Positions 13,228-58,636 of a stretch of 64,000 nucleotides of DNA are shown piece after piece. This DNA comes from Acidobacteriota bacterium. GTDB taxonomy: Bacteria > Acidobacteriota > Terriglobia > Terriglobales > SCQP01. The position numbers and the translations under genes were made by a program. The number at the start of each line of letters is the position of its first letter. Within the stretch, counting starts at the first letter, position 1. The DNA lies in contig SCQP01000007.1 in NCBI GenBank assembly GCA_004299485.1, positions 206,623 through 270,622 of the forward strand, in the 5' to 3' direction. The notes beneath the pieces are model-generated. The model was not told the origin of the DNA and searched no databases. It worked only from the letters and a program-made list of their open reading frames with translations.

Positions 13228-15965
13228 CGCGCCGCCTCCGCGGGTTCGATTTTGGTCCAGGCGGGCAGGGCGGCACCGTCGAAGGCGGTGAAGCCGGCGG
13301 GGACGGTGGCCAGGCTTGCGGCCAGGCCGGGGACGATGCGGAGGGGGACTTGATAGGCGCGGCTGTCCAACTCGATGCGCATGGGCTGGCCGTCACGCCA
13401 GCCAGCGGCGGTGGCGGCTTCGGCGCTCACGCCGACGTAGGCGGCGGGGGAGAGCTCGGCGATCGCTTTGCCCAGGCGGCTCAGCTCGTCGGAGCCGAAG
13501 AGGTGGTGGGAGCGAAGGGTGAGGAAGCTGCCGGGGGTTTGAGGGAGGGGTGAACTTATGGGGCCCTGCTTCGCGCTGCGCGCTACGCAGGGCGCCCCGT
13601 CGAAGAGACGGACACCCGCGTCGCCACCGCGTATAGATTGGTTTACTTCACTCTGGTAGCCGAGTTGCGATTGGGGCGAGTTCCAGCCGGGGCGCCAGAA
13701 GAAGGCGGTGAGGGCGGCGGGGGGCTGGGCGTTGTAGCCCTCCATGGTGAAGCTGAGGGCGGTGTCCTCATCTACAGGGGGCTTGGGCTCGCTGACGCTG
13801 ATATCGGCGTCTTTCGCGGTGCGGCCGCTGAAGCGATGGGTTTCGCGCGGCATTTTCTGCTCGGCCAGGCGGAAGCTGGCGGCCGGGGCGGCGTCGCGCA
13901 CTTTGGCCAGCGCGGGTTCCGACGCGGCGAGTGAGGCGAGGAGACCGTCGAGCTCGACGTCGTGATCCTGGGCTTGCTCCAACCAGCGCCAGGACTCGCG
14001 GATTTCCGGATTGGGCGACAGTACCTGGAAGAAACGCTGGGCGCGGCCTTCGTTGCTGATGAAGGTACCGTCGCCTTCGGCCCAGCTTGCGGCGGGCAGG
14101 ACGAGCTCGGCGGCTTGAGCGGTCGAATGGGTGACCTGATCGAGAACGACGAGATGGCGGCGGGGGTTGCCGACTTCATCGAGCGGCGGGACGCGGAAGC
14201 GGGTGAGAAAGGCTTCGACGGCGGCGGCAGGGGCACGGCGCTCGAGGTCGGTTTCGAGCACGATCACGGTTTCGATATCGTCGAAACGGGCGAGATCGAG
14301 ACCCTCACCCAAGGGGCGCGGGTTGAGCAGCGCCAGGCCGAGGGAGTTGGCTTCCGGAACCACGAAGCTGAGTTCGGGCTTGCGGCCACGCTTTACCAGC
14401 TCGGCAGCGACGGCAGCGGCGGCTTCAATCAACGCCGGGCTGCCGCAGCTTGTTCCGGCGATGATTAACGGGCGATCTGCGGCGAGCAAGGCAGCGAAGA
14501 TGGGGCCGTTGAAGTCGAGGGCGAGACGGGCGAGATCGTCGGGGGCGGCGTGATGGCAGGCGGTCGAGATGTCATCGAGCTTGGTGGCGGCGGGGGTGAG
14601 CTGGAAGAGCGGGCCGTGAGCGTCCTGAATGGCTTCGCGGGCGGCGTGGTCGAGCCAGTGCGGAATTTTGAGGGGATCGCAGATTTCGCGCAGGGGCTTT
14701 TTGCGCATGGCCTGGCGGAGGCTGAGGGCCATGCGGGCGGCGGAGTTGGTGAGGTCTTCGCCCAAGACCAAGGCAGCATCGCAGTTTTCGATGTCGCGCA
14801 GGCTAGGAACGTGGGCGAGGCCGGAGCGCATCAGATCGAGGATGCGGTTGATCAGCGCCAGCTCGTTGTCGCGCATGCCGGCGAAGAAGCGGTCGCGGCC
14901 GACGAGTTCACGGAGGGCGAAGTTGGATTCGAGCGAAGCGCGCGGGGAGCCGATGCCAATCATGCGGCCGGGGCGGCTCGCGCCGCTTTTATCGGGGCTT
15001 CGCCCCGCGGCCTCCCGCTGGTCGGCCTCCCCCCATCGCGCCGCTTGAGCTGCGACGAGGTCGCGCAGGTGGTTGAGGCCGGCTTCGGCGGTCGTGGGGA
15101 CGCCGCGGACGACGGCCTGACGGATGCGCTGATCGGAGGCCAGATATTCGTAGGCGTAGCGGCCGCGGTCGCAGAGGAAGTAGCCGTTGATCTCGCTGTT
15201 GTAGCGGTTGAAGGTGGTGCGGACGCTGTTGTAGCGTTCGCCGGGTGAGATGTTGCAGCCGAGCGAGCAATGGGCGCAGACCGAAGGGGTCCAGCGCAGG
15301 TCCCATTTGCGGGTGTAATGATGCTTGAGGGTGGCGTCGGTGAAGACGCCGGTGGGGCAAACCTCGACCAGATTGCCTGCGAACTCGCTGGCCAGCACGC
15401 CGTCCTGCTCGCGGCCGAAAAACACGCGGTCGCTGATGCCCAGCGCGTCGAAATCGCGGCCGCCAGCGTACTCACGATAGAAGCGCACGCAGCGGTAGCA
15501 CTGGATACAGCGGTTCATTTCGTGGTGAACGAAGGGACCGAGGTACTGATTGCGGAAGGTGCGTTTCTGGAAGCGGTAGCGGCGATAACTGTGGCCAGTC
15601 ATCACCGTCATGTCCTGAAGCTGGCAGTGGCCGCCTTCATCGCACACGGGACAATCGTGGGGATGGTGCACCATCATGCCTTCGATCACCGAAGAGCGGA
15701 AGGCGACGGCTTCGGGATGCTCGATCGAGATGCGGAGGCCCTCGCTCACCGGCGTCATGCAGGACATCACCAGGCGGCCGTGCTCATCGTGCTCATCCTT
15801 GAGCTGCTTGACGGCGCACTGGCGGCAGGCGCCGACGGAGCCCATGGCGGGGTGCCAGCAGAAGTAGGGCAGGTCGAAGCCGAGCGAGAGACAGGCCTGG
15901 AGCATGGACTGGTTCGCGCCCACTGTGTAGGGGTGGCCGTCGACGATGATGTGAACGCTAGGCAT
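13224..15965 (-). CDS. nuoG: NADH-quinone oxidoreductase subunit G, with two repeat-derived in-frame insertions
   Basis: Iron-sulfur subunit of the N-module, 913 residues. The N-terminal [2Fe-2S] ferredoxin domain has [19 protein letters not shown], followed by [16 protein letters not shown] (His/Cys clusters), a [14 protein letters not shown] cluster and a 4Fe-4S/molybdopterin-like domain starting [13 protein letters not shown] 15965 is preferred over an in-frame TTG at 15974 that lies inside the heptamer array. Two segments are foreign to the family: [14 protein letters not shown] (hairpin repeat 14973-15031, shared with nuoM) and [17 protein letters not shown] (palindrome near 13560). Overlaps nuoH by 4 bp. 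Confidence 0.95.
13555..13640 (-). repeat. Palindromic in-frame insertion in nuoG
   Basis: Hairpin with arms GGGGCCCTGC (13560-13569) and GCAGGG-CG-CCCC (13587-13598), inner GCGCTGCGCGC loop. It encodes a stretch from about GGDAGV to KQGP that is foreign to NuoG family sequence. No second copy was found in this window, so element status is inferred from structure and context. Edges approximate. Confidence 0.5.
14973..15031 (-). repeat. Hairpin element inserted in frame in nuoG (copy 2 of 2)
   Basis: About 59 bp. Two stem-loops, GCGGC-GCGA-GCCGC and GGGGC-TTC-GCCCC, and flanks CCTCCCGCTGGTCGGC match the nuoM copy (CCTCCCGGTGGTCGGC). Length difference is a small multiple of three in coding effect, so both remain in frame. 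Confidence 0.85.
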
Positions 15966-15973
15966 GAGGGGCA

Positions 15974-16017
15974 AGTGGCTAGTGGTTAGTGGTTAGTGGC
16001 TAGTGGCTAGTGGCTAG
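15974..16017. repeat. Heptamer array, 6 x AGTGGYT, upstream of nuoG
   Basis: Units AGTGGCT, AGTGGTT, AGTGGTT, AGTGGCT, AGTGGCT, AGTGGCT then AG. It lies 8 bp before the nuoG ATG, over the place where a Shine-Dalgarno would be. The same word recurs at 22111-22138. Bordered by GGAAGGCTCGG. Confidence 0.9.
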
Positions 16018-16060
16018 GAAGGCTCGGAAGTTGTGGCGCACCCCGGGCGCACGGCAGGAC

Positions 16061-17871: not shown

Positions 17872-19730
17872 CGGTCGATGTCGGCGAGGACGAAGTCCAT
17901 GGCGCCTAGCACTGCCAGCAAATCGGGGATCATGTGGCCGCGGCAGAGGAGGGGGAGGGTTTGCATGTTGACAAACGAGGGCGTCCGGACGCGGGTGCGG
18001 TAGGAGTGGCCGGAGCCGTCGCTGGTGAGGTAATAACCGTTGTTGCCTTTGGTTGCTTCGATGGCGCCGAGGGCTTCGCCCTCGGGCATGACGGGACCCC
18101 AGCTTACGCCGAGGAAGTGGGTGATGAGGGTTTCGATGTCGTGCATCGTTCCGCCGCGGCCCTCACCCGTGGGGGCGCCGGAGCGCTCCTTGAGAGGAGG
18201 GGTGGCGCGGGGGTCAGAAGACTTGTAGGGACCGTCGGGCATGATTTTCATGCACTGGTCAATGATGCGCATGCTCTGACGCATTTCTTCGACGCGGACC
18301 TCGGCGCGGCCGTAACAGTCGCCACGCTGGGAGGTGGGGATGTCGAAGTCGAACTGCTCGTAACCACCGTAGGGCTGTTTTTTGCGGAAGTCCCATTCGA
18401 GACCGCTGGCGCGGAGGTTGGGGCCGGTGACACCCCAGTCAATGGCGTCGGCGACGCTCATTTTGCCGACGCCCTGGGTGCGGGCCTTGAAGATGCGGTT
18501 CCCCATCACCTCGTGATCGTATTCCTTGAGGCGCTTGGGGAAATAGTTGAGGAAGTCGCGCATCATGGTGTCCCAGCCGTGGGGCAGGTCCTGGGCGACG
18601 CCGCCGATGCGGAACCAGTTGGGATGCATGCGCGCGCCACAGATGGCTTCGATGAGGCCGAAGGCGCGCTCGCGGTCGTTGAAGGTGAAAAAGACGGGAG
18701 AGAGCTGGCCCAGATCCTGGGCGAAAGTGCCGTACCAGACGAGATGGCTGATGATGCGGAACAGCTCGGCGGTCATGATGCGGATGACCTGCGCGCGGGG
18801 AGGAATCTCGATGCCGCCCAGTTTCTCGACCGCCATCAGATAGGCGAAGTTGTTCATGACCCCGGCGAGGTAGTCGATGCGGTCGGTGTAGGGGATGTAG
18901 GTGTGCCAGGTCTGGCGCTCGCCCATTTTCTCCGCGCCGCGATGGTGATAGCCGATATCGGGAACAACATCGACGATGGTTTCGCCATCGAGCTGCAGCG
19001 CCAGCCGGAGCACGCCGTGGGTGCCGGGATGCTGCGGGCCGATGTTGAGGAACATGAAGTCGGTATCGCCGGCGCTGCGCTGCATGCCCCAGTCTTCGGG
19101 ATTGAAGTGCAGCGTAGCCTGCTCCTGATCGACTTTTTCTTCCCAGAGGCGGAAGGGGCCCATTTCGGTGGCGCGGGCGGGATGCTCCTTGCGCAGAGGA
19201 TGACCGTTCCAGGAGCGCGGCATGAGGAGGCGGCGAAGATGGGGATGGCCATCGAAGCGGACGCCGAACATGTCGTAACACTCGCACTCGTACCAGTTGG
19301 CGGAGGGCCAGATGCTGGTGACCGAATCGAGATGCAAATCGGCGTCGCGCAGCGGGACCTTCAGGCGGAGATACTCGTTGCGGCCGAAAGAGAACAGATG
19401 GTAGACGACGGTAAATTCTTCCCGCGGAGGGCGCGGCCAGTTGGGGGGCGCGGGCTTGCGGCTGCGCTCGTCGACCGCGGTGAGGTCGTAGAGCATTTCG
19501 TAGCGCGGGGAGGCTTCATGCTTGAGCCAGCGCAGAGTGTCGCGGGCGTGTTCGCGGGTCAGCCAGAGAGTGGGGATGCCGTCGCGGGTGGCCTCCTGCG
19601 CGAGGACGGGCAGGCGTTCGAGGCCGGCAGGCAGCGCTACCGGCGCGGCAGGGCGCGGCGGCTGCGTCCAGTGTGGGCCGCCCGAAAGGGCGTCTCCCAA
19701 GGGCACTGGTTGGGGGCCGTCAGATTTCAT
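17868..19730 (-). CDS. nuoCD: NADH-quinone oxidoreductase subunits C and D, fused
   Basis: Fusion of the 30-kDa (NuoC, about residues 30-200) and 49-kDa (NuoD, about 210-620) subunits of the quinone-binding Q-module. NuoC signature [20 protein letters not shown] with PLRKEHPA; NuoD signatures [30 protein letters not shown] and the C-terminal [14 protein letters not shown]. Between PPLKER and MHDIETLI about ten extra Gly-rich residues ([10 protein letters not shown]) interrupt an otherwise conserved stretch. The start ATG overlaps by 11 bp a 53-codon ORF produced by duplication of the nuoB/nuoC junction. An SD-like GGAG lies 13 bp before the ATG. Confidence 0.96.
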
Positions 19731-19747
19731 CCGGGTTCTTCAACTCC
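19720..19747 (-). repeat. Direct repeat, left copy, nuoB/nuoC junction duplication
   Basis: 28 bp matching 19871-19898 at 25 of 28 positions. Read in nuoB's frame both copies encode ELKNPDEI-stop; the three differences are synonymous there. Contains the nuoCD start ATG. Confidence 0.9.
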
Positions 19748-19881
19748 TTGATTGGCGCGGGCCCCAGCGCGGCTCCGCCGCGCGTCCCGCTTATGCTCGC
19801 GCCGGGTTGGGGACCCCGCTCGCCCCAACCCGGCGCTGCGCCCCTCTGTCGGAAGGCTCGGGGTTGGGCTTCAGATTTCAT
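19720..19881 (-). CDS. 53-codon bridging ORF between nuoB and nuoC, probably non-functional product
   Basis: Starts MKSEAQP (compare NuoC's MKSDGPQP) and ends KELKNPDEI, the NuoB C-terminus. It overlaps nuoB's stop and nuoCD's start by the same 11-bp word ATGAAATCTGA, so ribosomes could pass from nuoB to nuoC by two successive stop/start couplings. The middle is encoded by a GC-rich hairpin element. The arrangement is what results from duplicating the nuoB/nuoC overlap around an inserted element. The peptide itself probably has no role; the reading frame may matter for coupling. Confidence 0.5.
19748..19870 (-). repeat. Hairpin element between duplicated nuoB/nuoC junction copies
   Basis: 123 bp of GC-rich palindromic DNA. 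Main stem GCCGGGTTGGGG (19801-19812) with CCCCAACCCGGC (19823-19834). Shares CCCAGCGCGGCTCCGCCG with the element at 21185 and the GCTCG..CCGGG..GGGGACCCCG arrangement with the one at 25472. Confidence 0.8.
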
Positions 19882-19898
19882 CCGGATTCTTTAGCTCC
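19871..19898 (-). repeat. Direct repeat, right copy, 3' end of nuoB
   Basis: 28-bp partner of 19720-19747; this copy contains the real nuoB stop codon and a silent ATG corresponding to the nuoC start. Confidence 0.9.
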
Positions 19899-20922: not shown

Positions 20923-22087
20923 TTCGTGATCCTCTCTTCGGATGGTAGCTCTTTAGGTGAGCGGGAGGCAAAGGGGAAATTGCGAGTTTCCGTTTCGAGT
21001 TTCGAGTTGCAGTGGCACAGTGGGAGGCGGCGGCGGGAGCCGTGCGGCGGCAAGTTGCGACGGACACGAGAGAGGAATATGGGCGCGGTTGTTGGGTTGA
21101 ACTGGGGTTGAGGCAGGAGCACGCGAGCCTGTTGCGACGGATTCGGGCGCTGCTAAGTGTGCCAGGCGTTATTAATCGCGGGCGCCCAGCGCGGCTCCGC
21201 CGGCAAACGACGCACTGCGTCGTTGTGCCCCGCTCTCTATGGATCTCCAGACCGCTTAGCCGGGGACCCCTACGCCCCGGCTGCGCTGCGGAAGAGCCGC
21301 GGGGGCGGAAGCGGTAGGAGGGGTTGAGGGCGCGCTGGACGAGGACGGCGGTGCGGGCGGGATTGGTAAGATTTGATCGGGAGCAGGCGCCAGTGGCGCC
21401 TGCTCCCCCAGCGCGGCTGCGCCGGCAAACGACGCACTGCGTCGTTGTTCCCCGCTCTCTGTGGACCTCGGAGCCGCTTCGCCTGGGGCCCCTGCTCCCC
21501 GGCTGCGCTACGCTGAAAACCTTCGGGTCGTCTGGCGGCTCATCGACGAAGCCGTGGCGGCGGTTCCATTCTTCCACGGACTCGGGGTGGTAGATGGGGA
21601 AGCCGTTGGGGCCGATTTCGGGAGGCGGCGGGGGTGGAAACTCGCTGTCCTTGTAGAGCTCGGCCACCCAGTCGGGTTGGGGCCGGGGACCGGCTGGGGG
21701 TTTGGGCTTGGGCTTGGGCTTGACGTCGGGGCCGGGGAGGAAGGCGTCGGGGGAGAGTTGGGCGAGGCTTTCCTGCCATTTGAGGAGCGTGCCGAGGCCT
21801 TTGGGATCGAAGGTGAGTTCGGAGAGGGCGCGCCAGTAGGAGTACTTGCCGGGAGACTGGGCGCGGGCCTGGTTCATGAGCGCCACGCCGTCGAGGAGCA
21901 GGCGCGAGGACCAGGAAATGCCGAACCAGGCGCGGAAGTTGGGATCGCGGCACCAGCGGTAGTAGGTGGTGCGGGGGATATTGGCGGACTTGCAGAGGGC
22001 CAGGGTGCACTGGCCGGAGGGGTTTTCGTGGATGTAGTCCAGCAGGCGGCGCTGGGCGGAGGAAGGCTTGAAAGGCTCGGAAGACAT
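20651..22087 (-). CDS. HTH-domain protein whose frame reads through two repeat elements
   Basis: The frame has 478 codons, but only about the first 195 look like protein. They include a helix-turn-helix region similar to terminase-small-subunit or homeodomain-like HTH proteins (CTLALCKSANIPRTTYYRWCRD), then a Pro-rich linker and PNGFPIYHPESVEEWNRRHG. After DDPKVFS come two near-identical repeat-encoded blocks (GTTTQCVVCRRSRAG twice), then low-complexity sequence overlapping nuoA. The natural stop was probably lost by insertion of the 21407 element. ATG at 22087 lies just downstream of a heptamer array. Function unknown. Confidence 0.5.
   Translation of the reverse strand: MSSEPFKPSSAQRRLLDYIHENPSGQCTLALCKSANIPRTTYYRWCRDPNFRAWFGISWSSRLLLDGVALMNQARAQSPGKYSYWRALSELTFDPKGLGTLLKWQESLAQLSPDAFLPGPDVKPKPKPKPPAGPRPQPDWVAELYKDSEFPPPPPPEIGPNGFPIYHPESVEEWNRRHGFVDEPPDDPKVFSVAQPGSRGPRRSGSEVHRERGTTTQCVVCRRSRAGGAGATGACSRSNLTNPARTAVLVQRALNPSYRFRPRGSSAAQPGRRGPRLSGLEIHRERGTTTQCVVCRRSRAGRPRLITPGTLSSARIRRNRLACSCLNPSSTQQPRPYSSLVSVATCRRTAPAAASHCATATRNSKRKLAISPLPPAHLKSYHPKRGSRNALASGRLFRSGDPVDGGHAQLVVSAGRPAPAARDRLALRGRCALHRRRPSPPLRPFLSGSDVFRGLRPRVGLHFFLGGGRPRRRLVRLR
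20983..21009. repeat. Imperfect heptamers CGAGTTT upstream of nuoA
   Basis: CGAGTTT, CCGTTT (one base short), CGAGTTT, CGAGTTG, 61 bp before the nuoA start, in the probable leader region of the operon. Confidence 0.65.
21185..21295. repeat. Hairpin element, C family copy 1
   Basis: Begins CCCAGCGCGGCTCCGCCGGC and contains the 19-bp near-perfect hairpin AACGACGCA-C-TGCGTCGTT and a GCCGGGG-ACCCCTACG-CCCCGGC stem. About 85% similar by eye to 21407-21517; translated in the HTH frame it gives the second GTTTQCVVCRRSRAG block. Confidence 0.85.
21381..21405. repeat. Perfect 11-bp hairpin next to C2 element
   Basis: GAGCAGGCGCC-AGT-GGCGCCTGCTC. No following T-run, so not a standard intrinsic terminator; part of the repeat cluster upstream of nuoA. 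Confidence 0.7.
21407..21517. repeat. Hairpin element, C family copy 2
   Basis: Second copy of the 21185 element, including the AACGACGCA-C-TGCGTCGTT hairpin, in the same orientation, 222 bp away. It interrupts the HTH frame near codon 195 and is read in frame. Confidence 0.85.
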
Positions 22088-22110: not shown

Positions 22111-22138
22111 AGTGGTTAGTGGCTAGTGGCTAGTGGTT
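22111..22138. repeat. Heptamer array, 4 x AGTGGYT
   Basis: AGTGGTT, AGTGGCT, AGTGGCT, AGTGGTT, followed by AGTGAAGGCTCGG. Same word and same border as the array upstream of nuoG; here 24 bp upstream of the HTH gene start. Confidence 0.9.
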
Positions 22139-22328
22139 AGTGAAGGCTCGGGGGGCGTGAGGGCCTCAGGGACCGGGGCGGGGATGGGGTGACCTTCGGC
22201 GATGCGTACCCACGATGTGCGGCGGGCTGCCCGCGGGAACGGGGCGCGTTCCTCAGAAATTGGGGGCCAATAAGTTAGAGGCGGAAAATTGTACTTTGGT
22301 TGCCTCGCAACGTGAGCTGGGCAGAGCA

Positions 22329-22439
22329 GTGGCTCGCCACTTTTTGCCCTGGTCGCTCCCGTTGGTCGCTTGGAGTGCGGGCTTCGATTCCCTGCGGGGT
22401 CCGCCCGCTAGCGCTCAGGGCTCCTCCAAGCTGCCGCCA
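22329..22439 (+). repeat. 111-bp interspersed element, copy B1
   Basis: From GTGGCTCGCCAC to CTGCCGCCA, exactly 111 bp. Contains GTGGC-TC-GCCAC, a GCTTGGAG/CTCCAAGC pair and GCGGGC/GCCCGC. Differs from consensus by CCTGCGGGG in the middle. Intergenic. Confidence 0.9.
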
Positions 22440-22543: not shown

Positions 22544-23770
22544 TTAGGCGGCGCGGGCGCGGACGGCGCGGGGCGGGCGGCGCCAGGTCACGGCGGCGTT
22601 GGAAAAATAATTCCAGGCGGAGGCCAGGGCGATGCCGACGGCGAGAGCCGCGGGCCAGGGCAGGAGCTCAGCGAGCAAGGTCACGCTGGCGGTATTAATC
22701 CCGAGGCCGACGAGCGAAAGAGTGTAAAAGTGGGCGAGGCGCCTGAGACGATCGCGCACGCTCGGGGCGGCGGAGGAGGCATCACGAAAGGTGTAGAACT
22801 CGTCGCCCAGGAAATTGTTGCCGATGGCAATGGCCGAGGCAGCGGCGGCGGCGAGAGCGGTGGATGATGTCAGGTGATGCAGAAGCCAAAAGGCGAGGTA
22901 GTTGACGGCGACGCCGGTCAGACCGACGGCACCGAAGCTGATCATGCGGCGGACTTCGCCGGTGGCGGCGGCGAGGGAGGCGACCTGGCGCAAAAAGCAC
23001 CAGGTAGGGCGCCAGCCTGCCTTGCTGCTGCCCGCGGTGCGCTGGCCGAAGCGGAAGGGGACTTCGGCCACGACTTGGGGCCCGGCGCGGGCGAGCAGCT
23101 CGAGTAGAATCTTGTAGCCCCGGGGCCGCAGGGCATCGAGCGCGGCGGCGTGGCGGCGGACGAGGAAAAAGCCGGACATGGGGTCGGTGATGCCGGCGAG
23201 CGTGCCCGGAAGCATGAGGCTCGCGAGCCCGGTGGCGGCGCGGGAGCCGAGGCGGCGGGCTTTACCCCAGGCTCCGAGCGCTCCGCCAGCGGTGTAACGG
23301 CTGGCGAGGACCAGATCGGCGTGGCGCTCGTGCAGGGTGAGCAGCAGCTCGGTCAACAGCTCGGGCGGGTGCTGCAGGTCGGCGTCCATGCAACCGAGAA
23401 CGTCTCCGCGGGCGGCACGCCAGCCGGTCAGCACGGCGGTTGACAGGTCGCAGTCGTGGTCGCGCTCGATGAGCCGCAGCCAGCCGAGGCCGGAAGGTGG
23501 CTCGCCACTATTTGCCCTGGTCGCTCCCGTTGGTCGCTTGGAGTGCGGGCTTCGATTCCCGGCAGGGTCCGCCCGCTGGCGCTCAGGGCTCCTCCAAGCT
23601 GCCGCCACTTGGAGCCTGCGGATTTCCTGGCGGGTACCGTCCTGGCTGGCGTCATCGACAATCAGCAGCTCGAATCGCTCTCCGGTGGCGGCCAGTGCGG
23701 CGGCGGTGCGCCGGACCATGGGCTCAATATTGGCGCGCTCATTGCGTGTGGGAACTACGAGTGAAACCAT
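22544..23770 (-). CDS. GT2 polyprenyl-phosphate glycosyltransferase fused to GtrA domain, with in-frame 111-bp element
   Basis: Dolichol-phosphate-mannose-synthase-like enzyme, 408 residues from ATG 23770 (an upstream GTG would add six). N-terminal GT2 domain: VVPTRNERANIEP, LLIVDDASQDGT and CMDADLQHPPELL (DXD). C-terminal GtrA domain (about 285-400, four helices, NFLGDEFYTFRD). It probably loads a sugar on a polyprenyl phosphate and flips it. Thirty-seven residues between RRLQV and WLRLIERD are encoded by the repeat at 23497-23607; homologues have a direct join there. The insertion lies in the Rossmann part, before the DXD, so activity is uncertain. Confidence 0.9.
   Translation of the reverse strand: MVSLVVPTRNERANIEPMVRRTAAALAATGERFELLIVDDASQDGTRQEIRRLQVAAAWRSPERQRADPAGNRSPHSKRPTGATRANSGEPPSGLGWLRLIERDHDCDLSTAVLTGWRAARGDVLGCMDADLQHPPELLTELLLTLHERHADLVLASRYTAGGALGAWGKARRLGSRAATGLASLMLPGTLAGITDPMSGFFLVRRHAAALDALRPRGYKILLELLARAGPQVVAEVPFRFGQRTAGSSKAGWRPTWCFLRQVASLAAATGEVRRMISFGAVGLTGVAVNYLAFWLLHHLTSSTALAAAAASAIAIGNNFLGDEFYTFRDASSAAPSVRDRLRRLAHFYTLSLVGLGINTASVTLLAELLPWPAALAVGIALASAWNYFSNAAVTWRRPPRAVRARAA
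23497..23607 (+). repeat. 111-bp element, copy B2, inside GT2-GtrA gene
   Basis: Full-length copy (111 bp = 37 codons) in frame in a minus-strand gene, giving WRSPERQRADPAGNRS-type residues. One change from consensus in the first spacer (CTATTTGCC). Confidence 0.95.
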
Positions 23771-23914: not shown

Positions 23915-24691
23915 TCAGCGGGCGCGGAGGGTGGAAGGCGACTTTGGGGGTGCGGCGCCCGGGGCGTAGAGGCTGCGCCAGGCGGCAGTGCGGATGACGA
24001 ACACGTCGGCGAACATGCGGGCGCTGTCGCGGAGGAGATGGATCTTGGCGCCTTCGGCGTGCGACCAGGCAAGGGGCACTTCGGCGACGCGGAGGCGGGC
24101 GCGGCGGGCAAGATAGAGCAGCTCGGGATCAAAACCCCAGCTGTCGATGCGCTGGCGCGGGAAGACGGCCTCGGCGGCGGCGCGGGTGAAAAGCTTGAAG
24201 CCGCATTGGGTGTCGGCGAACGGCAGGCCCAGGGCGAAGCGGACGAGGCGGTTGAAGAGGCGTCCGGCGGCTTTGCGGAGGGGCGGCTGACGCACGGCGA
24301 TCTTTCCGCGGCGGCTGCCGATGGCGATGTCGGCCCCAGCGGCCACCGCCGCTTCGAGGTGTTCCAGTTCTGCGATGGGCGCCGACAGGTCGGCGTCGGT
24401 AAACAGGCGGAGCGCGCCGCAAGCTTCGGTCATGCCGCGGCGCACGCAGAAGCCTTTGCCACGGTGACCGACCGGGGCGAGGATGCGCCAGGTAAGCTGG
24501 GGCGTTGACGGCGGCAGAGGGAGGCGGGGAGTGGCGTCGGTTGAGCCGTCATCGACGATGAGGACTTCGAAGCGCTGGGGGCGCGTGTGGCAGTAGGCTG
24601 CGATGGCGGCGAGGGTTGCGGGGAGGCGCTGGGCTTCGTTGAAGGCAGGGATGACGATGCTGATTTGCGGCGGAGGGAGAGTAGCGTTCAT
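23915..24691 (-). CDS. GT2 glycosyltransferase, ALG5/polyprenyl-phosphate glucosyltransferase-like
   Basis: 258-residue family 2 enzyme likely to make polyprenyl-phosphate sugar. Motifs: ISIVIPAFNEAQRL, LIVDDGSTDAT, RGKGFCVRRGM, LFTDADLSAPI (DXD) and DTQCGFKLFTR (typical of the ALG5/DPM branch), then WGFDPELL. The ATG overlaps the stop of the GT39-like gene by 4 bp, so the two are coupled. With the GT2-GtrA gene this suggests synthesis and use of lipid-linked sugars. The C-terminal tail after YAPGAA is low complexity. Confidence 0.9.
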   Translation of the reverse strand: MNATLPPPQISIVIPAFNEAQRLPATLAAIAAYCHTRPQRFEVLIVDDGSTDATPRLPLPPSTPQLTWRILAPVGHRGKGFCVRRGMTEACGALRLFTDADLSAPIAELEHLEAAVAAGADIAIGSRRGKIAVRQPPLRKAAGRLFNRLVRFALGLPFADTQCGFKLFTRAAAEAVFPRQRIDSWGFDPELLYLARRARLRVAEVPLAWSHAEGAKIHLLRDSARMFADVFVIRTAAWRSLYAPGAAPPKSPSTLRAR

Positions 24692-26412
24692 GGCAGGGCC
24701 AGGCGGTTCATGGGGATGATGATGCTGTGGTCGAGCGTCATCATGGGCAGGACGAGATTGCGGGCGGTGGGCGGGGAGGCGCCGGGGCTTTCGTAGAGCG
24801 AGACCACGATGCCCTGGTTCTCCGGGGTGTTGGCGTGGATGGGGAAGGTTTCGATGAGGCGGTAGGGAGGCTGGTGGAGCACCGCGCGCAGGTAGCGTTC
24901 GGAGGGCAGCAGGTCGGGGCGGTTATCCACGATGACGTAGCGGATGCCATAGGCGGCGAGTTTCTGGCGCACCTGGGCGGGGGAATGCACCAGCTCGCGC
25001 AGGCCCCAGGCGCGCTCCACGTCGGTGACGTAGAGGAGCTTGCGCAACACGATCCAGTGGCGGCCGGGATCGAGGGCGCGGGTGTAAAAGATGAAGTTGC
25101 CGAAGTAGCGTCCGTCGAAGGCGACGAAGGCGGGCGCGTGGGCCGGACGGGGCAGATGGACGACGGCGTTGGCCACGGCGCGGTAGCCGGAAATCGAGGG
25201 CCGCGCGAAGCGCCAGCCCATGACGGCGCAGGTGAGCAGGAGGGCTGCCAGCACTGGCGCGGCAGCACGCTTCGCCCAGCGGGGTGCGTCCGCAGGCCGG
25301 GCCGTTGACCGACGCAGAGCGCATAGCGGGACGGCGGCAAAGAAGACGAAGGCCGGCGCCCAGTAGAGGACATAGCGGCTTTCCTTGTGGGGGATAGCGA
25401 GAAAGGTGAGATATACGGCGGCGATCCAGAGGGCGATGCGGCGGGATTCTATTGATAGGCGCGGGGCCGGGTGTGGCTGCGCCACACCACCCGCTTCACG
25501 CTCGGCCGGGCTGGGGACCCCGAGAGCCCCAGCCCGCCCTGCGCGTTCCTCTGATAGGCACGGGGCCGGGCACCACCAGCGCCAGGAGGCGAGGCCGATG
25601 AGACTGAGGATGAGCACCGGCCAGGTGATCTGCGCTGGCAGGATGCGGACATAGCGGACGTATGTGGCCAGGCTGGTAAAGCTCATGCCGCGAGCTAAAT
25701 CTGTACCCAGAAAACTGTGGACCAGTTTCGTACTCACGATGAGGTACGGTCCGGCGATCACGACCACGATTGCCACCGCCGCCAGCATGGCTTTGGTCGC
25801 AATCCAGCGGAGCTTTTTCTCGAAGGTCAGGGTGAGCAGACAGTAGACGGGGATGAAAACACAGTTTTGCTTGGTCAGGACAGTCAGGGCGGCGAAGAAG
25901 GCGAACAGCAGCAGCGGCCGCGCGGCGCCGGTGCGCAGATAGCGCAGCCAGTAGAAGATGGCGGCCAGCGCCAGCGCCAGCAGGGGAATTTCGAGCACGG
26001 CCGACTGCTCAAACAGCAGCATGTGGGGCAACAGCGCGAGCACGAAGGTTGCCGCCGCAGCGGCATAGGGTCCGGCGATCTCATTCACCAGACGAAACCA
26101 GAAGGCCAGGCCGAAGAGCACAAACGCGAGCACCGCCAGCCGCGCGGTCACCGCGGTGGGGCCGAAGAGCGGAAAGAACAGCGCCTCTTCGAGGTGAAAC
26201 AGGGGCGGCCAAACCAGAATGCCCAGATTGGGGTAATGCGCGTACCAGACGTTGGTGTAGGCGCGCAGGTGAGTTACGGGCAGGTCGCGGAACAGATCGG
26301 CAAAGTACAGGCCGGTTATGGCGTGGGCCTGCTCGTCATGGTTGAGCAGGAACTCGCCCCGCCGGATGCCGTGAAGGAGGAAGGGGAGCACGGCGAGGAG
26401 CACGAGCATCAT
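24688..26412 (-). CDS. GT39/PMT-like membrane glycosyltransferase with in-frame repeat
   Basis: Integral membrane transferase using polyprenyl-phosphate sugars, about 574 residues, ten or more helices. The first loop has the acidic motif LLNHDEQAHAITGLYFADL with HYPNLGILVWPPLFHLEEA, as in PMT/ArnT-type enzymes. The C-terminal soluble part has YGIRYVIVDNRPDLLPS. Start set at ATG 26412: the longer frame upstream is just the translated 111-bp repeat (26422-26532). Residues near WWCPAPCLSEE...PAPRLSIESRR contain a 99-bp insertion flanked by a direct repeat. Acceptor (protein or glycan) unknown. Confidence 0.85.
   Translation of the reverse strand: MMLVLLAVLPFLLHGIRRGEFLLNHDEQAHAITGLYFADLFRDLPVTHLRAYTNVWYAHYPNLGILVWPPLFHLEEALFFPLFGPTAVTARLAVLAFVLFGLAFWFRLVNEIAGPYAAAAATFVLALLPHMLLFEQSAVLEIPLLALALAAIFYWLRYLRTGAARPLLLFAFFAALTVLTKQNCVFIPVYCLLTLTFEKKLRWIATKAMLAAVAIVVVIAGPYLIVSTKLVHSFLGTDLARGMSFTSLATYVRYVRILPAQITWPVLILSLIGLASWRWWCPAPCLSEERAGRAGALGVPSPAEREAGGVAQPHPAPRLSIESRRIALWIAAVYLTFLAIPHKESRYVLYWAPAFVFFAAVPLCALRRSTARPADAPRWAKRAAAPVLAALLLTCAVMGWRFARPSISGYRAVANAVVHLPRPAHAPAFVAFDGRYFGNFIFYTRALDPGRHWIVLRKLLYVTDVERAWGLRELVHSPAQVRQKLAAYGIRYVIVDNRPDLLPSERYLRAVLHQPPYRLIETFPIHANTPENQGIVVSLYESPGASPPTARNLVLPMMTLDHSIIIPMNRLALP
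25453..25570 (-). repeat. Hairpin element with flanking direct repeats, inside GT39-like gene
   Basis: Direct repeats TGATAGGCGCGGGGCCGGG (25453-25471) and TGATAGGCACGGGGCCGGG (25552-25570), 18/19 identical, 99 bp apart (33 codons). Between them: hairpin GTGTGGC-TGC-GCCACAC (25472-25488) and a GGCTGGGG...CCCCAGCC stem. Protein shows the duplication as PAPCLSEE and PAPRLSIE. Confidence 0.85.
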
Positions 26413-26421
26413 CCCGAGCCG

Positions 26422-26532
26422 GTGGCTCGCCACTTTTTGCCCTGGTCGCTCCCGTTGGTCGCTTGGAGTGCGGGCTTCGATTCCCGGCAGGGTCCGCCCG
26501 CTAGCGCTCAGGGCTCCTCCAAGCTGCTGCCG
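26422..26532 (+). repeat. 111-bp element, copy B3
   Basis: GTGGCTCGCCAC to CTGCTGCCGG; the last bases deviate from CTGCCGCCA. Its left end is only 9 bp from the start codon of the GT39-like gene, replacing the natural leader. Confidence 0.9.
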
Positions 26533-26662: not shown

Positions 26663-26773
26663 GTGGCTCGCCACTTTTTGCCCTAGTCGCTCCCGTTGGT
26701 CGCTTGGAGTGCGGGCTTCGATTCCCGGCAGGGTCCACCCGCTGGCGCTCAGGGCTCCTCCAGGCTGCCGCCA
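26663..26773 (+). repeat. 111-bp element, copy B4
   Basis: Full-length copy ending 5 bp before the stop codon of the GNAT gene; few differences (CCCTAGTCGC, GGTCCACCC, CTCCAGGC). Confidence 0.95.
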
Positions 26774-27957: not shown

Positions 27958-27983
27958 GTGGCACAGCCACCTCTTGCTGGGCC
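27958..27983 (+). repeat. Truncated element, GTGGC-ACA-GCCAC end
   Basis: GTGGCACAGCCACCTCTTGCTGG is identical to 33756-33778 inside the M48 gene. Sits between the GNAT start and the stop of the NHL lipoprotein gene. Confidence 0.8.
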
Positions 27984-33677: not shown

Positions 33678-35606
33678 ATGAAACCGTCGCGCACCCTAAC
33701 GATTTTGCTCGCTCTGGCAGTGTTGCTGGTTGTGGCGCCCGCGGGCGCGCGGGCGGTGGCACAGCCACCTCTTGCTGGAGCCGCCCTCCCGCTGCCACCC
33801 CAAGCCGCGTGCGGCTTGGGGGCCCCGGCGCTGGTCGGGCTGTGGCTGGGCTTCGCTCCCCGGCAACGGACGCCCGCAGGTGCTCCTGGCGTCTCCAAGT
33901 TGCCGCGACAGGTGACGGCGCCGCCGCCTCCGGCGGTGACGGTACCGGGCGCAGGCGCGATGTCGGCCAGCGCGCTGGCGGACCAGATTCTGGACCGGAT
34001 GAGCGCGCACGAACGGCAGTTGTACAAGCGGATGCAGGAGATGCGGCCGCGGGTGGAGACCTACATGCAGAACCTGCGGGCGGATGCGGTGCTGGGCGAG
34101 GTGCCGACGGCGGACCGGTATTATCTGGGAATTCTGCATTACCGGCAGGGGAAGTATTCGTCGTCCAGTTTTTTGCCGGAACCGCGGCAGGCGTGGCGGC
34201 GCTGGATTGGTCCGATCGATGATGCGATTACGGCGCCGGCGCGGCACATTCTGGATCTGGATGTGTTCCGGAATTCGTTTCCGCAGATGCTGTTTCCCGG
34301 CGGCGACCATTTCGACCGGCAGCATTATCGCTTTGCGTATGTGCAGCGGGCGTTTCTGGGGCAGGTGCGCTGCTATGTGTTCGACGTGGTACCGCTCGAC
34401 GTGCATGCCAAGGGGAGCTTCTGGGGGCGGATCTGGATCGAGGACCAGCACGATTTTCTGGTGCGGTTCAACGGCAGCTTCTGGGAAGACCGCTATGGGC
34501 ATCCGGACCTGCACTTTGACAGTTGGCGGGTGAACGTGCGGCCGCAGGTGTGGCTGCCGACCTACGTCTATACGCAGGCGCACGATCTGGGCTACGGCTT
34601 GTTCCGGCAGGCGCGCTTTCAGGCGCAGACGCGGCTGTGGGGCTATGACCTGACGGCAGGCGGGCATCAGCAGGAGTTGACCACAATGTCGATCGAGGGC
34701 GCGGACATGGCGATAACGGCGCCGCCGCCCAAGCCGATGTCGCCGGTGATTGAGGAACGGGAATGGGAACAGCAGGCGGCGCAGAACGTACTCGACCGGC
34801 TGATGCAGGCGGGACTGCTGGCGCCGCCGGGGCCGGCGGACCAGGTGCTGGACACGGTGGTGCAGAATCTGGAAGTCACCAACAAGCTGGAGATTGCGCC
34901 GCCGGTGAAGTGCCGGATTCTGCTGACCACGCCGCTGGAGACGCTGACGGTGGGGAACACCATTGTGATCAGCCGCGGGCTGATTGACAGCCTGCCGGAC
35001 GAAGCGGCGCTGGCGGCGATGCTGGCGCACGAGCTGGCGCACATCGCCCTGGGGCAGCGCATCGACACGCGCTACGCGTTTGCCGACCGGATGCTGTTTG
35101 CCGACCGGGAGAGTTTGAAGCTGCTGGATCTGCGGCGCACACCGGTGGAGGAACGGCAGGCGAATAGGCTGGCGGTGACGCTGCTGGCGAACTCGCCTTA
35201 CAAGGACAAGATGGCCGAAGCGGGGTTGTTTTTGCGGCAGGTGGCGGAGCGGGAGAAGCTGTCGCCGCATTTGTTCAACCCCAACCTGGGGAACGGCTGG
35301 TTCAGCCGTGACTACCTGACGCGGCTGCACGCGCTGGAGGTGAAAGCGCCAGCGCTGCAGCAGGCGAGCGTGGGGCAGGTGGCGGCGCTGCCGCTGGGCG
35401 GACGGATTCTGGTGAATCCGTGGGACGACAGCATCGAGATGGAAACGCCGGCGCCGGTGCGGTTGCTGTCGGCGCGGGAGAAGATGCCGCTGCAGCTCAG
35501 CCCGTTTTTCCCGGTGCTGCGGCGGTATAGCGCCGCGGACCCGAAGGCGGCGGCGAGCGCGAAACAGGGGACAGGGGCCAGGGGTCAGGGGTCAGGGGGG
35601 GGATAG
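33678..35606 (+). CDS. M48-type zinc metalloprotease, exported, with repeat-derived N- and C-terminal segments
   Basis: 642 residues. Sec signal MKPSRTLTILLALAVLLVVAPAGARA, then 50 residues encoded by the hairpin element 33756-33906 (QPPLAGAALPLPPQ...). A domain with DQILDRMSAHERQLYKRM and DRYYLGILHYRQGKYSSSSFL resembles outer-membrane sorting domains. The peptidase domain carries HELAH in AMLAHELAHIALGQRID plus downstream EERQANRLAVTLLAN. The last residues GTGARGQGSGGG are encoded by heptamers. GAGG lies 9 bp before the ATG. tonB-M48 proximity suggests an envelope role. Confidence 0.85.
   Translation: MKPSRTLTILLALAVLLVVAPAGARAVAQPPLAGAALPLPPQAACGLGAPALVGLWLGFAPRQRTPAGAPGVSKLPRQVTAPPPPAVTVPGAGAMSASALADQILDRMSAHERQLYKRMQEMRPRVETYMQNLRADAVLGEVPTADRYYLGILHYRQGKYSSSSFLPEPRQAWRRWIGPIDDAITAPARHILDLDVFRNSFPQMLFPGGDHFDRQHYRFAYVQRAFLGQVRCYVFDVVPLDVHAKGSFWGRIWIEDQHDFLVRFNGSFWEDRYGHPDLHFDSWRVNVRPQVWLPTYVYTQAHDLGYGLFRQARFQAQTRLWGYDLTAGGHQQELTTMSIEGADMAITAPPPKPMSPVIEEREWEQQAAQNVLDRLMQAGLLAPPGPADQVLDTVVQNLEVTNKLEIAPPVKCRILLTTPLETLTVGNTIVISRGLIDSLPDEAALAAMLAHELAHIALGQRIDTRYAFADRMLFADRESLKLLDLRRTPVEERQANRLAVTLLANSPYKDKMAEAGLFLRQVAEREKLSPHLFNPNLGNGWFSRDYLTRLHALEVKAPALQQASVGQVAALPLGGRILVNPWDDSIEMETPAPVRLLSAREKMPLQLSPFFPVLRRYSAADPKAAASAKQGTGARGQGSGGG
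33756..33906 (+). repeat. Mosaic hairpin element after the M48 signal peptide
   Basis: Starts GTGGC-ACA-GCCAC (as at 27958), has the perfect stem CCCCAAGCCGC-GT-GCGGCTTGGGG (33798-33821), and ends TCTCCAAGTTGCCGC, like the 3' end of the 111-bp family (CTCCAAGCTGCCGC). In frame with the gene. Confidence 0.8.
35565..35592. repeat. Heptamer array, 4 x CAGGGGN, in 3' end of M48 gene
   Basis: CAGGGGA, CAGGGGC, CAGGGGT, CAGGGGT. It is translated as QGTGARGQG, supplying the C-terminal tail. Confidence 0.85.
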
Positions 35607-41937: not shown

Positions 41938-42020
41938 GTGGCTCGCCACTTTTTGCCCTAGTCGCTCCCTCTGACGCTTGGCCGGGCTGGGGGTGAAGTT
42001 CCAGCCCGGCCCCCGCCATA
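41938..42020 (+). repeat. 111-bp family variant B5 (chimeric, shortened)
   Basis: First 44 bp match the 111-bp family (GTGGCTCGCCAC...GTCGCTCC). The rest is replaced by a GGCCGGGCTGG stem like that of the element at 25472, showing exchange of modules between families. Confidence 0.8.
41980..42011. terminator. Strong hairpin between convergent genes, possible terminator
   Basis: GGCCGGGCTGG and CCAGCCCGGCC form a perfect 11-bp stem with a 10-base loop, between stops at 41921 and 42024. No T-run on either side, so terminator function is uncertain. Confidence 0.45.
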
Positions 42021-49143: not shown

Positions 49144-49254
49144 GTGGCTCGCCACTTTTAGCCCTGGTCGCTCCCGTTGGTCGCTTGGAGTGCGGGCTTC
49201 GATTCCCGGCAGGGTCCGCCCGCTGGCGCTCAGGGCTCCTCCAAGCTGCCGCCA
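49144..49254 (+). repeat. 111-bp element, copy B6
   Basis: Full-length copy, 31 bp before the epimerase start and 46 bp after the acnA start on the other strand, so it lies in the divergent promoter region of both genes. Confidence 0.95.
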
Positions 49255-52041: not shown

Positions 52042-52152
52042 GTGGCTCGCCACTTTTAGCCCGGGTCGCTCCCGATGGTCGCTTGGAGTGCGGGCTTCGA
52101 TTCCCGGCAGGGTCCGCCCGCTGGCGCTCCGGGCTCCTCCAAGCTGCCGCCA
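52042..52152 (+). repeat. 111-bp element, copy B7
   Basis: Full-length copy between the convergent methyltransferase and nucleotide-sugar dehydrogenase genes, 18 bp after one stop and 36 bp before the other. Small changes (CCCGGGTCGC, CCGATGGTCG, GCTCCGGG). Confidence 0.95.
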
Positions 52153-58525: not shown

Positions 58526-58636
58526 GTGGCTCGCCACTTTTTGCCCGGGTCGCTCCCGTTGATCGCTTGGAGTGCGGGCTTCGATTCCCGGCCGGGTGCG
58601 CCCGCTGGCGCTCCGGGCTCCTCCAAGCTGCCGCCA
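58526..58636 (+). repeat. 111-bp element, copy B8
   Basis: Full-length copy between two GT4 genes, ending 15 bp before the next start codon. Differences: CCCGGGTCGC, TTGATCGC, CCGGCCGGGTGCG, GCTCCGGG. Confidence 0.95.

Follow-up and report, generated by a model that had tools for sequence, protein, structure and literature searches.

We analysed a 64,000-nucleotide stretch of DNA (the window), in which a peptidase M48 gene (33678..35606, + strand) carries an insertion of 153 nt, or 51 codons (33756..33908, + strand). The gene was assigned on the basis of PF01435, its translation and its relatives, and its frame is open across the element. The insertion begins directly after MKPSRTLTILLALAVLLVVAPAGARA, read from the sequence as a predicted signal peptide, and continues in its frame. 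It starts with GTGGCACAGCCAC and finishes with AAGTTGCCGCGA / GTTGCCGCGA. M48 orthologues in the related genomes G003 and G004 are without the element. A genome search recovered at least six full-length copies with 88-100% identity, as well as a head-only short copy of 23 nt at 27958..27980 (+ strand). In about 14 further copies positions 1-36 are joined straight to positions 74-152, that is, without the CCACCCCAAGCCGCGTGCGGCTTGGGG hairpin. We refer to this family as B, and to its 153-nt form as B-long. An earlier note on this DNA had described the M48 element as a joint between two other repeat families. Its 5' end does match the sequence at 27958, and the 3' halves of this element and of a 111-nt family (A, below) are homologous. 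However, given the at least six full-length copies and the roughly 14 that lack only the internal hairpin, the M48 element is an ordinary member of the B-long family and not a join of two others.

Other elements in the window belong to four further families. Family A elements occur on the + strand at 22329..22439 (111 nt, intergenic), 26422..26532, 26663..26773, 49144..49254, 52042..52152 and 58526..58636. Another 111-nt copy (23497..23607, + strand) lies in frame within a GT2 glycosyltransferase gene (22544..23770, - strand; Glycos_transf_2 and GtrA), where it forms a net insert of 37 codons against homologues at four loci in three relatives, with G006 contributing two of the loci. A family C element (25447..25547, + strand) is likewise in frame within a PMT_2 mannosyltransferase-like gene (24688..26412, - strand). 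Family D is represented between nuoB and nuoC (about 19746..19844, + strand), and the D-like family E by two copies on the + strand, one at 21186..21289, whose first stem carries a AAACGACGC..GCGTCGTTT hairpin, and one at 21408..21511. As the earlier note had recognized, the nuoB/nuoC element shares its layout with the C element at 25447..25547 and the E element at 21186. The element at 41938..42011 (+ strand) is a composite in which positions 1-32 of A run directly into the C-type GGCCGGGCTGG stem, which is the second stem of C. This junction, also proposed earlier, was seen only here. Indeed, all of the sequences named in that note are present where it placed them.

Two kinds of local repetition were also observed. 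The nuoB/nuoC element is flanked by a 33-nt direct repeat with 85% identity (window 19715-19747 and 19866-19898), and at L035:15113-15513 two D elements lie within a tandem unit of 172 nt in which the end of the upstream gene is repeated; D insertion may be associated with local duplication. Separately, tandem AGTGGCTAGTGGTTAG heptamer-type repeats occur at window positions 15960-16036 and 22111-22140.

Element families in the genome

We sampled 60 stretches of 20 kb plus the window (61 stretches), amounting to 1.264 Mb of the 3.30-Mb genome, or 38%. Elements were located in this sample with one seed per family in single-pass searches; profiles of B built by iterated nhmmer drifted into A and were dropped. 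The sample contains 157 elements (A, 86; B, 23; C, 29; D, 13; E, 6), and genome-wide figures rest on these 61 stretches, of which the first 20 were picked partly for their A copies. Family A measures 111 nt and B 114 nt, or 153 nt with an inserted hairpin, and elements of C, D and E are about 99 nt long. Matches between the named elements are far beyond chance in BLAST and nhmmer comparisons. The five families form at least two superfamilies (A/B and C/D/E), each of which has multiplied here.

An alignment of A, B and the A-like and B-like elements found in sister species extends from end to end, and some of the latter appear intermediate between the two families (GTGGCTCGGCCACC...CTTCGATCCCCGGCAACGG). 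Thus, the right half that A and B have in common reflects common descent, because the homology extends over their whole length. Families C and D have one layout with different stems. These stems covary: 10 of 24 pairs have changes on both sides and 94.7% of cells are paired, a level reached in none of 500 shuffles. RNAalifold applied to a mixed A/B alignment returned a weak common fold. Elements are not clearly clustered beyond chance, as four adjacent pairs lie within 25 bp of each other where 2.6 are expected. One VPS10/sortilin-like gene (L043:3605-6763) contains three in-frame elements (A, C and A), two of which are 2 nt apart.

Insertion sites and interrupted genes

The junctions follow a simple rule. 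Cores of A are 110 nt long, plus 1, in 68 of 71 copies; the core is followed by R, three free bases and then, in 91% of cases, G. In B, the sequence G-W is followed by three free bases and a G in 100% of copies. Read directly, the ends of both families are GTGGC at the start and GCCGC[CG]N ahead of NNNG. The insertion for A is a fixed 111 nt placed 3 nt upstream of a G, and the B and D inserts are 114 and 99 nt. In related genomes the same G follows most elements, which are there 108 and 114 nt long. We found no target duplication: the left and right flanks of A (71 copies), B, C and D have no consistent match, and none was seen at empty sites. Short forms without the large hairpin exist for A (41 nt) and B (23 nt). 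NNNG follows short A in eight of nine copies (p about 0.0009), and so these look like insertion products rather than the outcome of later decay. At L045:8468 lies a B element, about 46 nt long, whose hairpin is collapsed to its base.

Some 35 of the 157 elements (~22%) are inside predicted genes, a count that depends on our own ORF caller, which uses codon usage and is biased toward open frames. Since genes make up 89% of the sample, they are strongly avoided yet not excluded. A flank-frame test, in which the element itself is ignored, is free of this bias but small: 15 elements keep the frame across the element, 14 of them stop-free, and two on the same strand do not. The interrupted genes encode SMC, ThiE, an M24 peptidase, an AMP ligase, a pyridine-nucleotide reductase, a HemG-like oxidase, EgtD, a sulfite reductase, a TreZ-like hydrolase, a secretin, two glycosyltransferases and the M48 peptidase, and Pfam domains are split by the genic elements or lie on both sides of them. 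The lengths 99, 108, 111, 114 and 153 nt are all multiples of three, although these five length classes are not all independent. The 41-nt short A is not divisible by three, and no genic example of a short copy was found. A genic insertion thus usually adds 33-51 residues without breaking the frame, given lengths in multiples of three and GC-rich sequence with few stops. The frames of the elements are no more open than those of shuffled sequence of equal composition; composition alone accounts for the scarcity of stops, with no sign of selection against them.

Related genomes provide empty sites for many of these insertions. For example, the SMC protein of every relative that has the region matches up to residue 1129-1134 and resumes at about 1165-1168, and the DNA on the two sides is adjacent. 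In five of six alignments this insert, a D element, amounts to 33 codons. Only one SMC gene was found in the genome (G000), where weaker matches cover the repeat itself, and insertions thus persist even in this gene. The net insert of A is 37 codons in the M24 peptidase (against four relatives) and in the AMP ligase (against two), as in the glycosyltransferase above, and that of B is 38 codons in HemG (against one relative). For M24, ThiE, AMP ligase, HemG and EgtD, relatives within the genus match the joined flanks in one stretch. The relatives are fairly divergent, so that junctions can be placed only to within one base. Because relatives carry uninterrupted genes, the tested genic insertions are lineage-specific.

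Mobility and competing readings

We consider it highly probable that the element in the M48 gene is one copy of a miniature mobile element, hairpin-forming and non-autonomous, which works in the manner of Rickettsia palindromic elements (RPE). A parent transposon with the same ends was not seen in the 1.26-Mb sample. Retrotransposition by a standard reverse transcriptase was considered and found to be without support, as a search for RVT_1 reverse transcriptases in this genome returned none.

A narrower form of the mobile-element reading is that the repeats are of the REP/BIME type and mobilised by RAYT, in which case a tyrosine HUH transposase would cut the GTGGC hairpin heads. The lack of target duplication, the target base at a fixed distance, the terminal hairpin and the structured single strand would all fit such an enzyme. 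Acidobacterial tyrosine transposases with repeat families have been described, and REPs inside genes are known, for instance in O. terrae (PMC3733652); the elements studied here are similarly high-copy hairpin repeats, some of them within genes. Genes for Y1_Tnp (Y1/RAYT transposase) are present in some relatives, among them G002, G003 and G006. On the other hand, Y1_Tnp was found neither in the present genome, which is 98.8% complete, nor in G001 and G004, two incomplete assemblies that both carry elements. Furthermore, REPs are 20-40 nt long and bear a GTAG/CGTC tag, whereas the units here span 99-153 nt and neither tag was seen. We regard mobilisation by RAYT as possible, though on balance unlikely.

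The earlier note had favoured a common pool of hairpin modules that exchange freely and form no true families. Several features do point that way. The 39-nt internal hairpin of B is present or absent at one fixed site, and in G002 an A-like element (L136) has an insert resembling it at the homologous position. The AAACGACGC..GCGTCGTTT hairpin (AAACGACGCACTGCGTCGTTT) is common to C-type (L045:14516, L095:2103) and E-type (21186) elements, and the C element at L108:8169 has an extra piece similar to the AAACGACGCACTGCGTCGTTT hairpin. In addition, there are composites, each a single case: 41938, L043:6267 (C then A), L095, L118 and L108. The last of these (L108:16694) is a complete B within a short A whose site follows the NNNG target rule, which identifies it as a nested insertion. 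More directly, when head and tail modules were scored apart in the 157 elements, we counted 73 with A at both ends, 16 with B at both ends and neither of the two mixed arrangements, i.e., no mixed ends among 89 A/B elements; the partial A/B elements in the sample comprise 14 that are head-only and five that are tail-only. The clean copies of the M48 element and the whole-length homology of A and B, with intermediates in sister species, also stand against a pool of modules. The earlier note had named clean families that do not mix as the outcome that would refute it, and on this count its central claim fails for the ends. The reading of modules exchanged between families thus mostly fails. What survives of it is a limited modularity, consisting of optional internal hairpins at fixed sites, hairpin-less short forms and rare composites, and not of exchanged ends. 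A pool without true families is largely refuted, and we rate it improbable. As a separate observation, the A-like element at L136/L141 of G002 has another palindrome at the B-long insert site, where the position is conserved and the stem sequence differs.

It could also be that these are functional RNA or terminator elements retained for regulation, with the genic insertions as by-products. Intergenic copies are the majority, and A copies are somewhat commoner in convergent gaps (21 of 64) than the background (102 of 623). However, elements are frequent in divergent and tandem gaps too, genic copies occur in both orientations, and the insertion sites are lineage-specific, all of which make a regulatory role quite improbable as the explanation. 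Removal at the RNA level, by which tiny self-excising or ribosome-bypassed inserts would leave the host protein unaffected, would suit both the insertions within conserved domains of essential proteins (e.g., SMC and ThiE) and the strongly covarying stems, but it needs neither lengths in multiples of three nor a nearly stop-free frame (14 of 15, a weaker argument given that frames at this GC content are mostly open regardless), an Rfam scan of the elements matched no family, intron or ribozyme features were not seen, and we judge it very improbable.

For the miniature mobile element that we prefer, the covarying stems suggest that copying would proceed via a folded single strand, and a putative enzyme acting in trans would move the elements. 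Selection would then remove most genic insertions. Families may diverge through base changes that preserve the fold and through gain or loss of internal hairpins, and composites probably arise when elements land in or beside one another, at times with subsequent deletion.

Relation to known palindromic elements

The closest parallels in behaviour are the RPE and Wolbachia palindromic elements, which are hairpin-forming, about 100-150 nt long, present as several families per genome and without a known mobiliser, and which occur both in intergenic regions and in frame in conserved protein genes (PMC2229807, PMC10969869, PMC3767692). The elements described here are of the same 100-150 nt class, form hairpins, belong to multiple families, and likewise occupy intergenic sites as well as in-frame sites within conserved protein genes. 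They differ in several respects. RPE of R. conorii end in CGTC (PMC3733652), whereas A and B start with GTGGC, obey the NNNG rule and have no CGTC end. Rickettsia orthologues often share an insert, whereas the insertions tested here are absent from relatives. The window has a GC content of 65% and its lineage appears to be other than Rickettsiales; kin structure and GC may point to a place in Acidobacteriota. Finally, every net length measured here, which covers A, B and D against empty sites, is a multiple of three. From this comparison, the elements appear to work like RPE and are best filed outside RPE membership, the likeness described being one of behaviour.

The ERIC/RU-1, RU-2 and RU-3 MITEs are also small non-autonomous elements able to fuse in frame with genes (PMC2759123, PMC2229807), a likeness that extends to the elements here. 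Most bacterial MITEs duplicate their target and are bounded by terminal inverted repeats and TA ends (PMC2229807); by contrast, no target duplication was detected here. In the literature searched, which mostly excluded subscription papers, we found no reports of such elements in Acidobacteria. A wider proposal, which we consider evenly balanced, is that a clade of GC-rich bacteria outside Rickettsiales independently evolved a translation-compatible miniature transposon. Its hairpin families would be kept at lengths divisible by three across species and genera and would insert 3 nt before a G without target duplication, invading essential genes such as SMC in frame.

In-frame palindromic elements are best known from Rickettsia and Wolbachia, and a usual explanation there is genome decay. 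Here, the fixed-length families, the many empty sites and the simple target rule make the mobiliser and any selection on length testable questions. The same is true of how SMC or ThiE tolerate an insert of 33-38 residues in a conserved domain. Annotators should accordingly read unusual inserts in this group's conserved proteins as mobile DNA.
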